64,000 bases of DNA from NCBI GenBank assembly GCA_022482815.1, contig JAKVOM010000001.1, positions 2,810,946 through 2,874,945 of the forward strand. Direction: 5' to 3'. Each line of letters opens with the position of its first letter. Within the stretch, counting starts at the first letter, position 1. The DNA is from Acidaminococcus sp. GTDB taxonomy: Bacteria; Bacillota; Negativicutes; Acidaminococcales; Acidaminococcaceae. The notes below the pieces were generated by a model. That model did no database searches. It saw nothing but the letters and a program-made list of their open reading frames with translations, and was not told the origin of the DNA. The position numbers and the translations under genes are program-made. Shown here piece by piece: positions 11,484 to 20,318 of this stretch.

Positions 11484-11936
11484 ATGAGCGATGTCAAAAC
11501 GGCCATGGAAAGAATTGCACCTTGTGGACTGCATTGCGGAAAATGCTTTGCCTTTACGAATGGAGATATTCACGAAGCAGCAGGAAAACTGCAGAAAAAT
11601 CTGGGAGATTTCGCACCCTACGCAAAACGTTTCACAACCGCACTGGATCCTGTATTTGAAAAATATCCGGAGTTTGCACAGCTGCTCGATTATATCGCAA
11701 AGGCACAGTGTGGCGGATGCAGGAAAGAAAAATGCAAGTTCTATAAGAATTGCAAAGTTCGCTCTTGTGCTGAAGCAAAAGGTGTGGATTTCTGTTTCCA
11801 GTGCGATGAATTCCCTTGCAATCACACCGGTTTAGATCAAAATCTTTACAACCGTTCTGTTGAAATAAATCGGCGGATCAAAAAAATTGGCATTACTGCT
11901 TACTATGACGAGATTAAAGATAAACCAAGATATTGA
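11484..11936 (+). CDS. DUF3795 Cys-rich protein
   Basis: Small soluble protein of about 150 aa of unknown function. Cysteines are grouped as in DUF3795 proteins: CGLHCGKC near the N-terminus, then CGGCRKEKC, CKVRSC and CFQCDEFPC in the second half, suggesting a zinc or Fe-S site. AAAGGAGG 7 bases before the ATG at 11484 decides against the longer frame from 11415. It appears monocistronic with its own terminator. Product name by family resemblance only. Confidence 0.75.
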   Translation: MSDVKTAMERIAPCGLHCGKCFAFTNGDIHEAAGKLQKNLGDFAPYAKRFTTALDPVFEKYPEFAQLLDYIAKAQCGGCRKEKCKFYKNCKVRSCAEAKGVDFCFQCDEFPCNHTGLDQNLYNRSVEINRRIKKIGITAYYDEIKDKPRY

Positions 11937-12042: not shown

Positions 12043-12072
12043 TTGTCTTACCGACAAAGAACGTACTATAAT
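12043..12072 (+). promoter_or_regulatory. Orphan plus-strand promoter ahead of the structured region
   Basis: TTGTCT (12043-12048), 18-base spacer, TATAAT (12067-12072). A short dyad TTGTC...GACAA overlaps the -35. No gene follows on this strand before 14376, so the transcript would run into the structured region at 12294-12551. Confidence 0.5.
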
Positions 12073-12293
12073 TTCATGGTTTTTTGTTTTAATATCCATT
12101 ATTTTCAGTGAATCATTAGCACAAAATCTATAAGGTTGCACTCTACATTCCTTAAGTAAAAATTTACAAATACCCTATCGTAACTTGCCTTCTCTTTTGC
12201 AAAAAAGTTAGATGATATCTGCTTCTTGAAACATAAACACTCAGTATGCACATACTATTTTTCTTTGTTTCTGGTGGACTCTGCTGCAAGACA

Positions 12294-12551
12294 GCCGCAA
12301 ATACGCGAAAGGCGGGCGCGGGGCCCAGAAGATGTACACAAATAGTACCTCGATGGGTCACGCGTCCGCCTGACAAAGTAGATGCGGCAGGGAACCAATG
12401 ATTCAATTAACGGCTTCAGATACATGCGGATGTGCCAGCTACGCAAGAAAACAATCCGGAGGGTTACCGGGTGTAACTCGAGGAATTGTTGACACAGCGT
12501 AACTGGCACAGACACATGTAGATGAAGTTGCGAACGAATCACTGGTTCCCT
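12294..12551. ncRNA. Candidate structured non-coding RNA, unknown family
   Basis: Two adjoining hairpin domains were seen by hand. Domain 1: 12294-12299 pairs 12383-12388 and encloses 12310-12319 with 12362-12371, 12322-12327 with 12354-12359, and 12334-12337 with 12345-12348. Domain 2 starts on the next base: 12389-12404 pairs 12536-12551 (15 of 16), and the rod continues through 12411-12444 with 12497-12530, broken by small internal loops, to an apical part that folds further (ACAAT/ATTGT, GTTAC/GTAAC). No plausible protein is encoded. Domain 1 has its G-U pairs on the plus strand, while the rod is ambiguous. Signatures of tmRNA, RNase P and SRP RNA were not seen. A rod-like 6S RNA, an ornate orphan RNA or a decayed palindromic mobile element remain possible. 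Confidence 0.55.
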
Positions 12552-12583
12552 AATTCTGCAGAGGACATCAGAAACTCCCTTAG

Positions 12584-12638
12584 AAAAAACTCTGCCCCAC
12601 GATGCGTGCGAGACTTGTCGAACACCATCGTGAGGCAG
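12584..12638 (-). terminator. pgi terminator
   Basis: A 13-bp stem (12592-12604 with 12626-12638, one G-U on the minus strand) and a 21-nt loop, followed on the minus strand by a run of six T. Confidence 0.8.
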
Positions 12639-12651
12639 GTGCCTTTCAACT

Positions 12652-14103
12652 TTACCGGTTTACATTGACCTTACCCTTCATAATTCTCTTATACACTTCC
12701 ACACCTGGCTGGTCGAAAGCATCCACATCAGCCAGTTCGCCTTCATAGGCAATGCTGAGCATCAGGAAGTAGAAAATCTGGCCGAGATAGTACTCGTCAA
12801 GCGACGGCAGCACGTAGAGAGCATTCATCCGGTGATCACCGGCAAGCGCTTCTTCATTGGCTTCCATAGCAGCATTCAGGGCCGTTCCAAGATCCAGGCC
12901 TTCATATCCATTAAGAGATGCCATCTGCGGGAATGGATTGTGAACGGTCATCTTGTTCAGACGATTCTTTACAAAGAGGAACTGTACAACCTTATCCCGG
13001 ATGCCGTCTTGATGGAGCTGCGTCTGGGAGTGCATGTCCGTCGTTCCGATGGCAAGGACAGGCGTACGGCCGTAGAACACGGTGTTGCCTTCGCGGTCCT
13101 TGCGTTTGCCCAGCGATTCGGCAAGGAGCTGCACATACCATTCACCCAACGCTTTGAGGCGCATTGCATAAGGCATAAAGACTTCAATCGTGCAGCCGTG
13201 ATTCTTGCGGGCCAGATATTTCAGCGTCGCATTTAACAGTGCCGGGTTCTTCCATACATCATCCCCCAGGCACGCTTTGTCCATATCACGGGCACCCGTA
13301 AGCAGTTTATCAATGTCCATACCCAATGCCGCGGCTACGATAAGGCCCGGCGTGGAAAGCACGCTGAACCGTCCGCCTACACCGTGCGGAACCTGGAAGA
13401 CCGGCCAATTATACTGTGCAGCCAGCTGAATCAGCGGACAGGTCTTGAGCGTGCGGTCGGAAACTACGGTCACCCCTACATCAATCGACTTGCCTTCTTC
13501 TGTCAGTGTTCCGTAGAAATAGAGAAATGCGGACATGGCTTCAAGGGTCGTCCCGGATTTACTGATAGGAACCAGCATGACTTTAAGGTTCCGTTTTTCC
13601 TTTGCGCGCACGTCGGCCGCCATCTTCATAATGGCTTCTTCCGTCTCGCTGGCAGCTTCAGGATCGAGGTTGTTGCCTGCAAAGAAGATTTGAGGTCTCT
13701 TAGCCGCTGCATCCTTCGGCCAATACAGGCTTTCGAAGCAGTCATAGAGGACTTTGCCGCCGAGGAAAGATCCGCCGATACCGCAGAAAATAGCGGCATC
13801 ATAATGGGAACGGACGTCCTCACCAAATTTTTTCAAATCTGCTATCACAGAAGGAGAGTTCGGATACCCTTCTTTGATATAAGGCAGTCTTGGGAAATAA
13901 ACAGCTTCGGGAGCACCATCTTTGGACAGGTGATTTTTGGCTACACCATCCGTACGGATTTTCTGCACGGCCGCGGCAGCCGCAGCAATCTGCGGTGCAA
14001 AAGCCTCTACTTCTTCTTTTTGTACGGTTTCAGGTCCAACCACATTGTGGTAGTCGAAAGTAAACCCTGAATCAAGAGTTAATTTAAGCTCATCTTCCTT
14101 CAT
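12652..14103 (-). CDS. pgi: Glucose-6-phosphate isomerase
   Basis: Interconverts glucose-6-phosphate and fructose-6-phosphate in glycolysis and gluconeogenesis. It is 483 aa. The sugar-phosphate (SIS) segments are visible as CGIGGSFLGGKVL and PISKSGTTLE, with HGVGGRFSVLS and the late DMHSQTQLHQDG active-site region. AGAGGG lies 6 bases before the ATG. It is transcribed alone, divergently from the WYL regulator, from an extended -10 promoter. Confidence 0.95.
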   Translation of the reverse strand: MKEDELKLTLDSGFTFDYHNVVGPETVQKEEVEAFAPQIAAAAAAVQKIRTDGVAKNHLSKDGAPEAVYFPRLPYIKEGYPNSPSVIADLKKFGEDVRSHYDAAIFCGIGGSFLGGKVLYDCFESLYWPKDAAAKRPQIFFAGNNLDPEAASETEEAIMKMAADVRAKEKRNLKVMLVPISKSGTTLEAMSAFLYFYGTLTEEGKSIDVGVTVVSDRTLKTCPLIQLAAQYNWPVFQVPHGVGGRFSVLSTPGLIVAAALGMDIDKLLTGARDMDKACLGDDVWKNPALLNATLKYLARKNHGCTIEVFMPYAMRLKALGEWYVQLLAESLGKRKDREGNTVFYGRTPVLAIGTTDMHSQTQLHQDGIRDKVVQFLFVKNRLNKMTVHNPFPQMASLNGYEGLDLGTALNAAMEANEEALAGDHRMNALYVLPSLDEYYLGQIFYFLMLSIAYEGELADVDAFDQPGVEVYKRIMKGKVNVNR

Positions 14104-20107: not shown

Positions 20108-20193
20108 TGGTGCGGTTGGGGGGACTTGAACCCCCATGAGGTTGCCCTCACCAGCCCCTCAAGCTGACGCGTCTGCCATTCCGCCACAACCGC
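20108..20193 (-). tRNA. tRNA-Leu (GAG)
   Basis: 86 nt including an encoded CCA (20108-20110). The acceptor stem GCGGTTG pairs with CAACCGC, there is a long class-II variable arm, the T-loop is GTTCAAGTC, and the anticodon loop TTGAGGG gives anticodon GAG. It reads CUC and CUU codons. Confidence 0.95.
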
Positions 20194-20231
20194 ATGTATA
20201 TCAATTCTGTGAAGTTTTATGGACAAAAAAA

Positions 20232-20318
20232 TGGTGCGGCCAAGAGGAATTGAACCTCCACGGGGTTGCCCCCACTAGCTCCTGAAGCTAGCGCGTCTGC
20301 CAGTTCCGCCATGGCCGC
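20232..20318 (-). tRNA. tRNA-Leu (CAG)
   Basis: 87 nt with encoded CCA (20232-20234). The acceptor stem GCGGCCA pairs with TGGCCGC, the variable arm is long, the T-loop is GTTCAATTC, and the anticodon loop TTCAGGA between CTAGC and GCTAG gives CAG. It reads CUG and lies 38 bases upstream of the GAG isoacceptor, so the two are probably one transcript. Confidence 0.95.

Follow-up and report, generated by a model that had tools for sequence, protein, structure and literature searches.

Folding of the structured locus next to pgi

The region between the DUF3795 gene and pgi of Acidaminococcus sp. raises the question of whether it harbors an undescribed structured RNA, possibly a relative of 6S RNA, or a palindromic element. 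It is part of a 64,000-nucleotide stretch of DNA that was analyzed as a whole (referred to as the window), and positions refer to the window unless stated otherwise. The original prediction placed two abutting hairpin domains in this region, downstream of a plus-strand promoter. When positions 12080 to 12650 were folded and compared with 100 shuffled sequences, the plus strand reached -215.1 kcal/mol (z = -10.7) and the minus strand a z value of -8.6; none of the 100 shuffles was as good in either case. The minimum-energy fold contains both hairpin domains, which confirms their existence, but not their abutting layout: residues 12267 to 12284 pair with residues 12557 to 12575, both in the fold of the window and in the short copies described below, so that the outer helix of the first domain encloses the second domain, a long rod. 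The outer arms of the rod (12389 to 12404 and 12536 to 12551) pair at 15 of 16 positions (94%), as predicted. According to the consensus of the short copies, a third hairpin at positions 12591 to 12638 is also part of the element.

The presumed promoter at positions 12043 to 12072 proved to be at chance level, as two promoter-like sites were present between positions 11900 and 12750 where 1.5 ± 1.2 are expected, and it falls outside the sequence common to the copies. A search with the Rfam models, likewise suggested as a check, returned no family over the region at the gathering threshold, and up to an E value of 10 just two chance matches to eukaryotic families were obtained. A known family was therefore not found over the element, and the earlier judgment that tmRNA, RNase P, and SRP are absent agrees with the lack of any Rfam match to them.

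A dispersed repeat family in the Acidaminococcus genome

BLAST analysis of positions 12250 to 12640 against the genome of origin, which consists of one contig of 3,057,042 bases, yielded 64 matching pieces, and 36 stretches around these pieces were retrieved for comparison of the copies. A covariance model built from own-genome copies only (R1) gave 47 matches in this 3.06-Mb genome, the model-building copies included. The copy number rules out a single orphan RNA gene. Together with the chance-level promoter and the lack of any match behind pgi in eight congeners, it also speaks against an orphan RNA gene with a promoter of its own, and a 6S-like RNA, for which one or a few genes would be expected, had to be abandoned in view of the same 47 matches, the missing Rfam match, and the promoter result. 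The proposed palindromic element came close, and a structured element without an Rfam match was indeed confirmed. Scattered copies with target duplications had been named as a finding that would speak against a new RNA; the scatter was observed, but target duplications were not, a repeat search at the window copy for lengths of at least 12 revealing no direct repeat around it. Empty sites of the element, hereafter termed EL, are not clean insertions. A MITE of a DNA transposon would have terminal inverted repeats accompanied by a target duplication, and a duplication shorter than 12 may be present at EL.

Most copies in the own genome represent a short form of approximately 225 nucleotides that lacks the counterpart of residues 12388 to 12552, i.e., the rod, which is present in about ten own-genome copies. 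The short form comprises helix P1, the core hairpin P2-P4, and the right-hand hairpin P5. These modules are combined in a mosaic manner, with one P5 or tip variant being found beside differing neighbors. In copies from five stretches (L012, L013, L017, L041, and L043), the apical hairpin contains an additional insert (GGAACTGAGCGCCAACGAT...) that seems to be a third module. Upstream of many own copies (L009 to L044), there is a further common hairpin (GGCATACG...CGTATGCC) with a T run behind it, along with other shared intergenic modules, and the intergenic regions of this genome resemble a patchwork of repeat families. The copies in L015, L019, L020, and L034 adjoin open reading frames of 450 amino acids; two of these, at L020 and L034, have nearly identical 3' ends, perhaps indicating an insertion sequence.

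Architecture of the window copy and the rod

The window copy of EL spans positions 12267 to 12646. Its outer helix P1, corresponding to helices 1 and 2 in the consensus of 24 short copies, is formed on the plus strand by the 5' segment 12267 to 12284 and the 3' segment 12557 to 12575. The core hairpin P2-P4 (12292 to 12388, plus strand) is supported by covariation and by a match of covariance model R2, described below, at positions 12267 to 12411 with 97.8 bits. Its conserved internal loop consists of CAAAUACGCGAAAG (12298 to 12311) and CUGACAAAGUAGAUG (12370 to 12384) on the plus strand and is accompanied by a covarying stem and a tip with a GUAC helix. Close likeness of the P2-P4 core was found in congeners, in members of the class, and in metagenome-assembled genomes (MAGs) labelled Acidobacteria and Patescibacteria. 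An A run at positions 12584 to 12589 forms, when read on the minus strand, the T tract behind P5 and, as judged from the terminator scan, an intrinsic-terminator-like end for pgi. P5 itself (12591 to 12638, no strand assigned) represents the right edge of the element and corresponds to helix 7, which shows two-sided changes in 13 of 18 pairs. The right end GGTGCCTTT (12638 to 12646, plus strand), which is common to many own copies, is 5 nucleotides away from the stop codon of pgi (12652 to 12654, minus strand).

The rod (12389 to 12551, plus strand) is an inverted repeat whose helix extends inward through 59 predicted pairs in nine paralogues. Two-sided changes occur in 3 of these 59 pairs, the covariation being thin because the rods are approximately 90% identical. 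With the filters switched off and 701 bases searched, R2 assigned 31.6 bits (E = 3.4e-8) to the rod stretch 12419 to 12522. Note that the same search gave 31.9 bits for the first copy in reverse and 5.4 bits for the rod in reverse; with the former value being as high, the rod score alone is no proof of kinship. By eye, the rod strands ACGCAAGAAA ... GACACAGCG resemble the AAGGAAG/GACACAG variant of the internal loop. Judging from the R2 score and these loop letters, the rod probably represents another, diverged EL that lies within the first one, and such nesting would explain why the locus looked like two abutting RNA domains. A pattern scan of a genome contig collection, from which records near the own genome may be missing, gave no match to the rod core.

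Covariation and the folded strand

Within the alignment of the 24 short copies, 96.4% of the cells were paired and two-sided changes were found in 42 of 64 pairs, these pair counts being taken without correction for relatedness. The covariation score was 0.478, compared with 0.170 for shuffled and at most 0.083 for slid controls, so that the covariation test put forward in the original prediction was passed by the paralogues. The fold of EL is under selection: pairing is kept by compensatory changes among the paralogues, and the core recurs across species.

The two strands behaved differently. On the plus strand, G-U pairs occupied 78 cells in 19 columns and A-C combinations 15 cells in 10 columns; two columns supply 37 of the 78 G-U cells, and without them the ratio is 41 to 15. 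The folding energy of the plus strand was lower in 39 of 41 own copies and in 36 of 37 copies of relatives (75 of 78), ten reverse-strand matches and one fragment having been removed before this test, and the plus strand also folded better in all 23 more distant copies. The better folding of the plus strand and the prevalence of G-U over A-C both indicate that one strand is the folded one. This folded strand would be either RNA or single-stranded DNA, and the strand tests fit both alike.

Position behind stop codons and a terminator-like end

The location of EL relative to genes was determined with gene ends derived from a home-made codon score rather than from annotation. Among 40 own copies, the right-hand gene is antisense to EL in 37, and its stop codon lies -3 to 34 nucleotides from the EL edge in 33; the left-hand gene is on the plus strand in 20 cases, on the minus strand in 17, and missing in 3. 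This count leaves out truncated, extra, or P5-only copies (the first copies of L037 and L041, L042b, L044b, two in L010, and one in L028) as well as nine R1 matches whose stretches were not retrieved. In four congeners, the right-hand gene is antisense in 24 of 25 copies, with the stop codon -9 to 34 nucleotides away in 22 of 25, and the left-hand gene is on the minus strand in 24 of 25 as well. As both flanking genes are thus oriented in the minus direction, EL is placed between two genes in tandem and belongs to their template strand. Ten further copies, in which no clear pattern was apparent, were excluded because no codon model could be fitted. In the distant set (L117 to L136, L151, L154, and L155), an antisense open reading frame of at least 80 codons ends near the 3' end of EL in 17 of 23 copies and a sense open reading frame ends near the 5' end in 8 of 23, both being raw counts without a chance level. 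The edge found in congeners, GTTATGCGTTAGCC, holds stop codons in gene sense, and at L092:8284 a gene terminates on a TAA inside the EL edge. One copy (L134:1501-1645, minus strand) is located in sense orientation in a 16S-23S rRNA spacer, 3 nucleotides before the 23S match.

The terminator scan of the window identified positions 12614 to 12594 on the minus strand, followed by AGAGTTTTTT, as one of three such sites, with 1.0 being expected. An A run of at least four residues is present in 20 of the 24 short own copies, and in these P5 and the T run of the opposite strand read as a putative intrinsic terminator on the gene-sense strand. The congener copies examined in sequence have neither P5 nor a T run of the own type; a GC-rich hairpin with a T run behind the stop codon, as expected of an intrinsic terminator, was therefore found only in the P5 part of own copies.

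Distribution across bacteria and the conserved core

BLAST did not detect the repeat in 40 relatives, the own genome being the only positive one among 41. The resulting impression of a restriction to one species was wrong, as the covariance models match widely. R1 matched 15 of 61 genomes. R2, a model derived from 46 aligned matches of 11 genomes with one row being a reverse-strand match, was positive in 77 of 300 genomes of the class, representing 37 of 97 genera (E ≤ 1e-5; about 10 candidates scored per genome). Eleven of the 77 positive genomes had supplied sequences to the model; outside the model-building genomes, 66 of 289 were positive. Neither R1 nor R2 detected EL in the congeners G001 and G008. 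Exact core patterns were found in Acidaminococcus fermentans and A. massiliensis and also in MAGs labelled Acidaminococcaceae, Acholeplasmataceae, Acidobacteria, and Patescibacteria, labels that are quoted as given and may be wrong. R2 matched 26 times in the MAG labelled Acidobacteria and twice in one labelled Patescibacteria, and R2 was also positive (E ≤ 1e-5) in 8 of the 60 genomes surrounding the MAG labelled Acidobacteria, which is counted among them, with up to 20 copies each. In one genome (G032), the ten listed EL matches are all on the plus strand at 1.16 to 1.62 Mb and all on the minus strand at 2.94 to 3.61 Mb, as if the strand followed the replichore.

With few exceptions, the core consists of CAGAUGC, a short loop, a variable stem, a GUAC tip, and then UGACANNGCAGAUG, its two strands being written CAGAUGC...GACAAAGCAGAUG. 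The short loop is mostly GC, GA, AA, or UA, followed by GAAA or GGAA. Within 127 copies, the two sides of the loop are coupled: 5' UA occurs with 3' AC in 14 of 14 cases, 5' AA with CA or CC in 15 of 20, and 5' GC or GA with 3' AA in 76 of 87, as tabulated from a pattern match that includes some wrong picks and is uncorrected for relatedness. The conserved core of the EL hairpin is non-Watson-Crick.

Turnover between related species

Comparison of related species revealed that the order of several EL-bearing genes is preserved, with ELs appearing and disappearing independently of the gene. At the end of gene F18, EL is present in G002 only, at those of F19 and F20 in G006 only, and at that of F21 in both. 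G002 lacks EL at F20, where the stop codon is followed after 20 nucleotides by the next start codon and no hairpin is discernible by eye; at the same F20 border in G006, a complete EL is preceded by two 5' half-copies that end at the tip. F3 is 97.5% identical over 400 nucleotides in G006 and G002, and the ELs behind it differ in their stems. The EL behind F1, a GMP synthase gene according to Pfam, is common to four species, and a module of F2 plus EL occurs at three different places in four species (G002/G007, G006, and G004). At the 3' end of pgi, no model match was obtained at any of nine loci in eight congeners, several of which show by eye an ordinary terminator hairpin behind pgi instead.

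Search for a mobilizing enzyme and a carrier

Integron integrase (TIGR02249) did not exceed the cut-off in any of 61 genomes, and an integron was rejected on this ground; matches below the cut-off, i.e., other tyrosine recombinases, were present in 60 of 61 relatives and in all 14 control genomes. Y1 transposase (PF01797) was not found in the EL-bearing genomes G002, G006, G023, and G024, nor reverse transcriptase (PF00078) in the EL-bearing genomes G002 and G007 (both E ≤ 1e-6). Mobilization by Y1 enzymes (IS200/IS605, REP/RAYT) was rejected because of this phyletic mismatch, and mobilization by group II introns or reverse transcriptase because of the mismatch and the lack of an Rfam intron match over EL; both tests address resident genes and would miss an enzyme that has been lost or comes from elsewhere. 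Upstream of position 2450 in L044, just upstream of an EL copy, there is a domain V-like sequence that resembles the end of a group II intron. A reverse transcriptase gene is located at G000:C1:1887267, approximately 2.5 kb from another EL copy. Plasmid and phage collections gave no match for the queries used and the exact EL pattern was absent from viral contigs; carriage by phages or plasmids was rejected on this lack of any match.

Comparison with known systems

No description of EL was found in open-access papers, searched without their supplements. Among published motifs, MRSC-65-2 is described as a long single stem with covariation, occurring in many phyla with dozens of copies per genome, and is thought to be selfish and possibly active as DNA; the accessible text of the same paper regards inconsistent orientation to neighboring genes as a mark of mobile or repeat sequences among candidate motifs (PMC11109978). 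EL is similar in copy number, covariation, and possible action at the DNA level, but MRSC-65-2 has the conserved repeat UYCCGG instead of the EL core and the orientation of EL is nearly fixed; judged from the published description, as far as accessible, the two appear distinct but may still be identical. OTH-22-1 is portrayed in the accessible text of PMC8632094 as an attC-like structured motif of several phyla outside the known attC classes.

The attC sites of integrons lie directly behind a stop codon, are folded from the bottom strand, and have a variable terminal structure. EL has the folded bottom strand in common with them and likewise follows immediately upon the stop codon, in 33 of 40 own copies and 22 of 25 copies from congeners. 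It differs in that integron integrase never exceeded the cut-off, and it may also lack the RYYYAAC...GTTRRRY boxes, which were not seen by eye; the ends of own copies read GTTTC...GAAAC, by eye only, which is the reverse order to RYYYAAC/GTTRRRY. As far as the sources were accessible, EL appears to differ from MRSC-65-2, OTH-22-1, and attC in its core, in facing almost always the same way behind stop codons, and in the missing integron integrase.

Group IIC introns insert at gene ends or close to terminators in a fixed orientation. EL resembles them in gene-end insertion in one orientation, but no intron model matched and reverse transcriptase was not found in two EL-bearing genomes. BOX, RUP, ERIC/IRU, REP/BIME, and bcr1 are, like EL, short, gene-less, dispersed, structured, and modular or mosaic (in part after the accessible text of PMC2267715). 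Compared with these repeats, the fold of EL is kept across the class and beyond, and its strand and its position relative to stop codons are nearly fixed. The repeats described for Geobacter in the accessible text of PMC2996986 are other than EL.

Possible nature of EL

Overall, EL looks like an undescribed small mobile element. We lean, with moderate confidence, toward reading the locus as a member of a dispersed family of probably selfish elements that have no gene, insert at the 3' ends of genes in a strand-specific manner and, in the own genome, mostly bring a terminator. The folded strand, be it RNA or single-stranded DNA, would be recognized by a protein, and a new copy would be laid down at a gene 3' end, where harm is least; the terminator and the stop codons in the EL edge may soften the insertion, and stems may be swapped between copies. 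The window copy would then have arisen by insertion behind pgi in this lineage, with the rod as a second EL nested there. Several observations speak against this reading: the searches for reverse transcriptase, Y1 transposase, and integron integrase revealed no mobilizing protein; no target duplication was seen at the one copy inspected for repeats of at least 12, and the empty sites are not clean; neither a plasmid or phage match nor an exact pattern match in viral contigs was obtained; and, at the own locus, no promoter above chance is available for the folded strand. Moreover, the positions behind F1 and F3 that are common to several species would suit a host function, too. Such a function, in which the hairpin terminates transcription or shields the 3' ends of mRNAs, as REP/BIME stabilizers or bidirectional terminators do, and spreads by gene conversion rather than transposition, appears unlikely to us as the nature of EL, even though the shared positions behind F1, the GMP synthase gene, and F3 point to it. 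EL lies as far from the stop codon as a terminator does, P5 with a T run is present in 20 of the 24 short copies, and by eye ordinary terminator hairpins occupy the same place behind pgi in several congeners. However, the better-folding strand is the antisense and not the mRNA strand, the congener copies examined have no P5 and no own-type T run, a conserved internal loop would be superfluous in an ordinary terminator, and by eye the empty F20 site of G002, with its start codon 20 nucleotides behind the stop codon, manages without a hairpin.

The geometry of gene, stop codon, and site with a folded template or bottom strand is that of integron cassettes, and a hypervariable covarying stem above a conserved core would also befit an attC-like recombination site that is folded as bottom-strand DNA and combines with genes into cassettes, the recombinase being other than the integron integrase. 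This is improbable in our view, although the F2 plus EL module at different places in G002/G007, G006, and G004, the other tyrosine recombinases (subthreshold integrase matches) in 60 of 61 relatives, and the precedent of OTH-22-1, placed outside the known attC classes in the accessible text of PMC8632094, are in line with it. It conflicts with the absence of integron integrase above the cut-off in all 61 relatives, with several EL-bearing genes that stay in order between species where ELs appear and disappear on their own, and with the copy in the rRNA spacer. The latter copy, being in sense orientation, places the respective EL strand in the transcribed strand and, like the RNA-like core with its tandem G-A pairs and coupled loop variants, would suit a family of noncoding RNA genes whose plus-strand transcripts act in trans together with a protein. 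Yet this reading is the least probable one: no promoter above chance was found in the scan of the window locus, the flanking genes both run opposite to EL in 24 of the 25 copies from congeners, so that the folded strand would be transcribed only from a promoter of its own, and about 50 copies with mosaic stems are unlike a noncoding RNA gene.

Returning to the selfish element, a more far-reaching version, which we propose only tentatively, is that EL represents a new type of mobile element that has no gene and no recognized transposon ends, is read via a folded single strand, and is placed on a defined strand downstream of stop codons by a machinery other than integron integrase, Y1 transposase, or a group II intron. 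Such an element would have spread through a bacterial class and into one or more further lineages, and genes lying ahead of it may be moved as well. If EL is mobile, its recognition form would be the folded strand and its target the gene end, a target that would make insertion nearly harmless, which raises the question of which protein reads the EL core; if it is a host 3'-end element, it would add an undescribed layer to the gene-end architecture of Negativicutes. In either case, an abundant conserved fold that is absent from Rfam 15 follows the stop codons of everyday genes across many bacteria. Mobility is made testable by Acidaminococcus species with and without EL behind the same gene.

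Elsewhere in the window, two neighboring tRNA-Leu genes with the anticodons GAG and CAG are located on the minus strand at positions 20108 to 20318.
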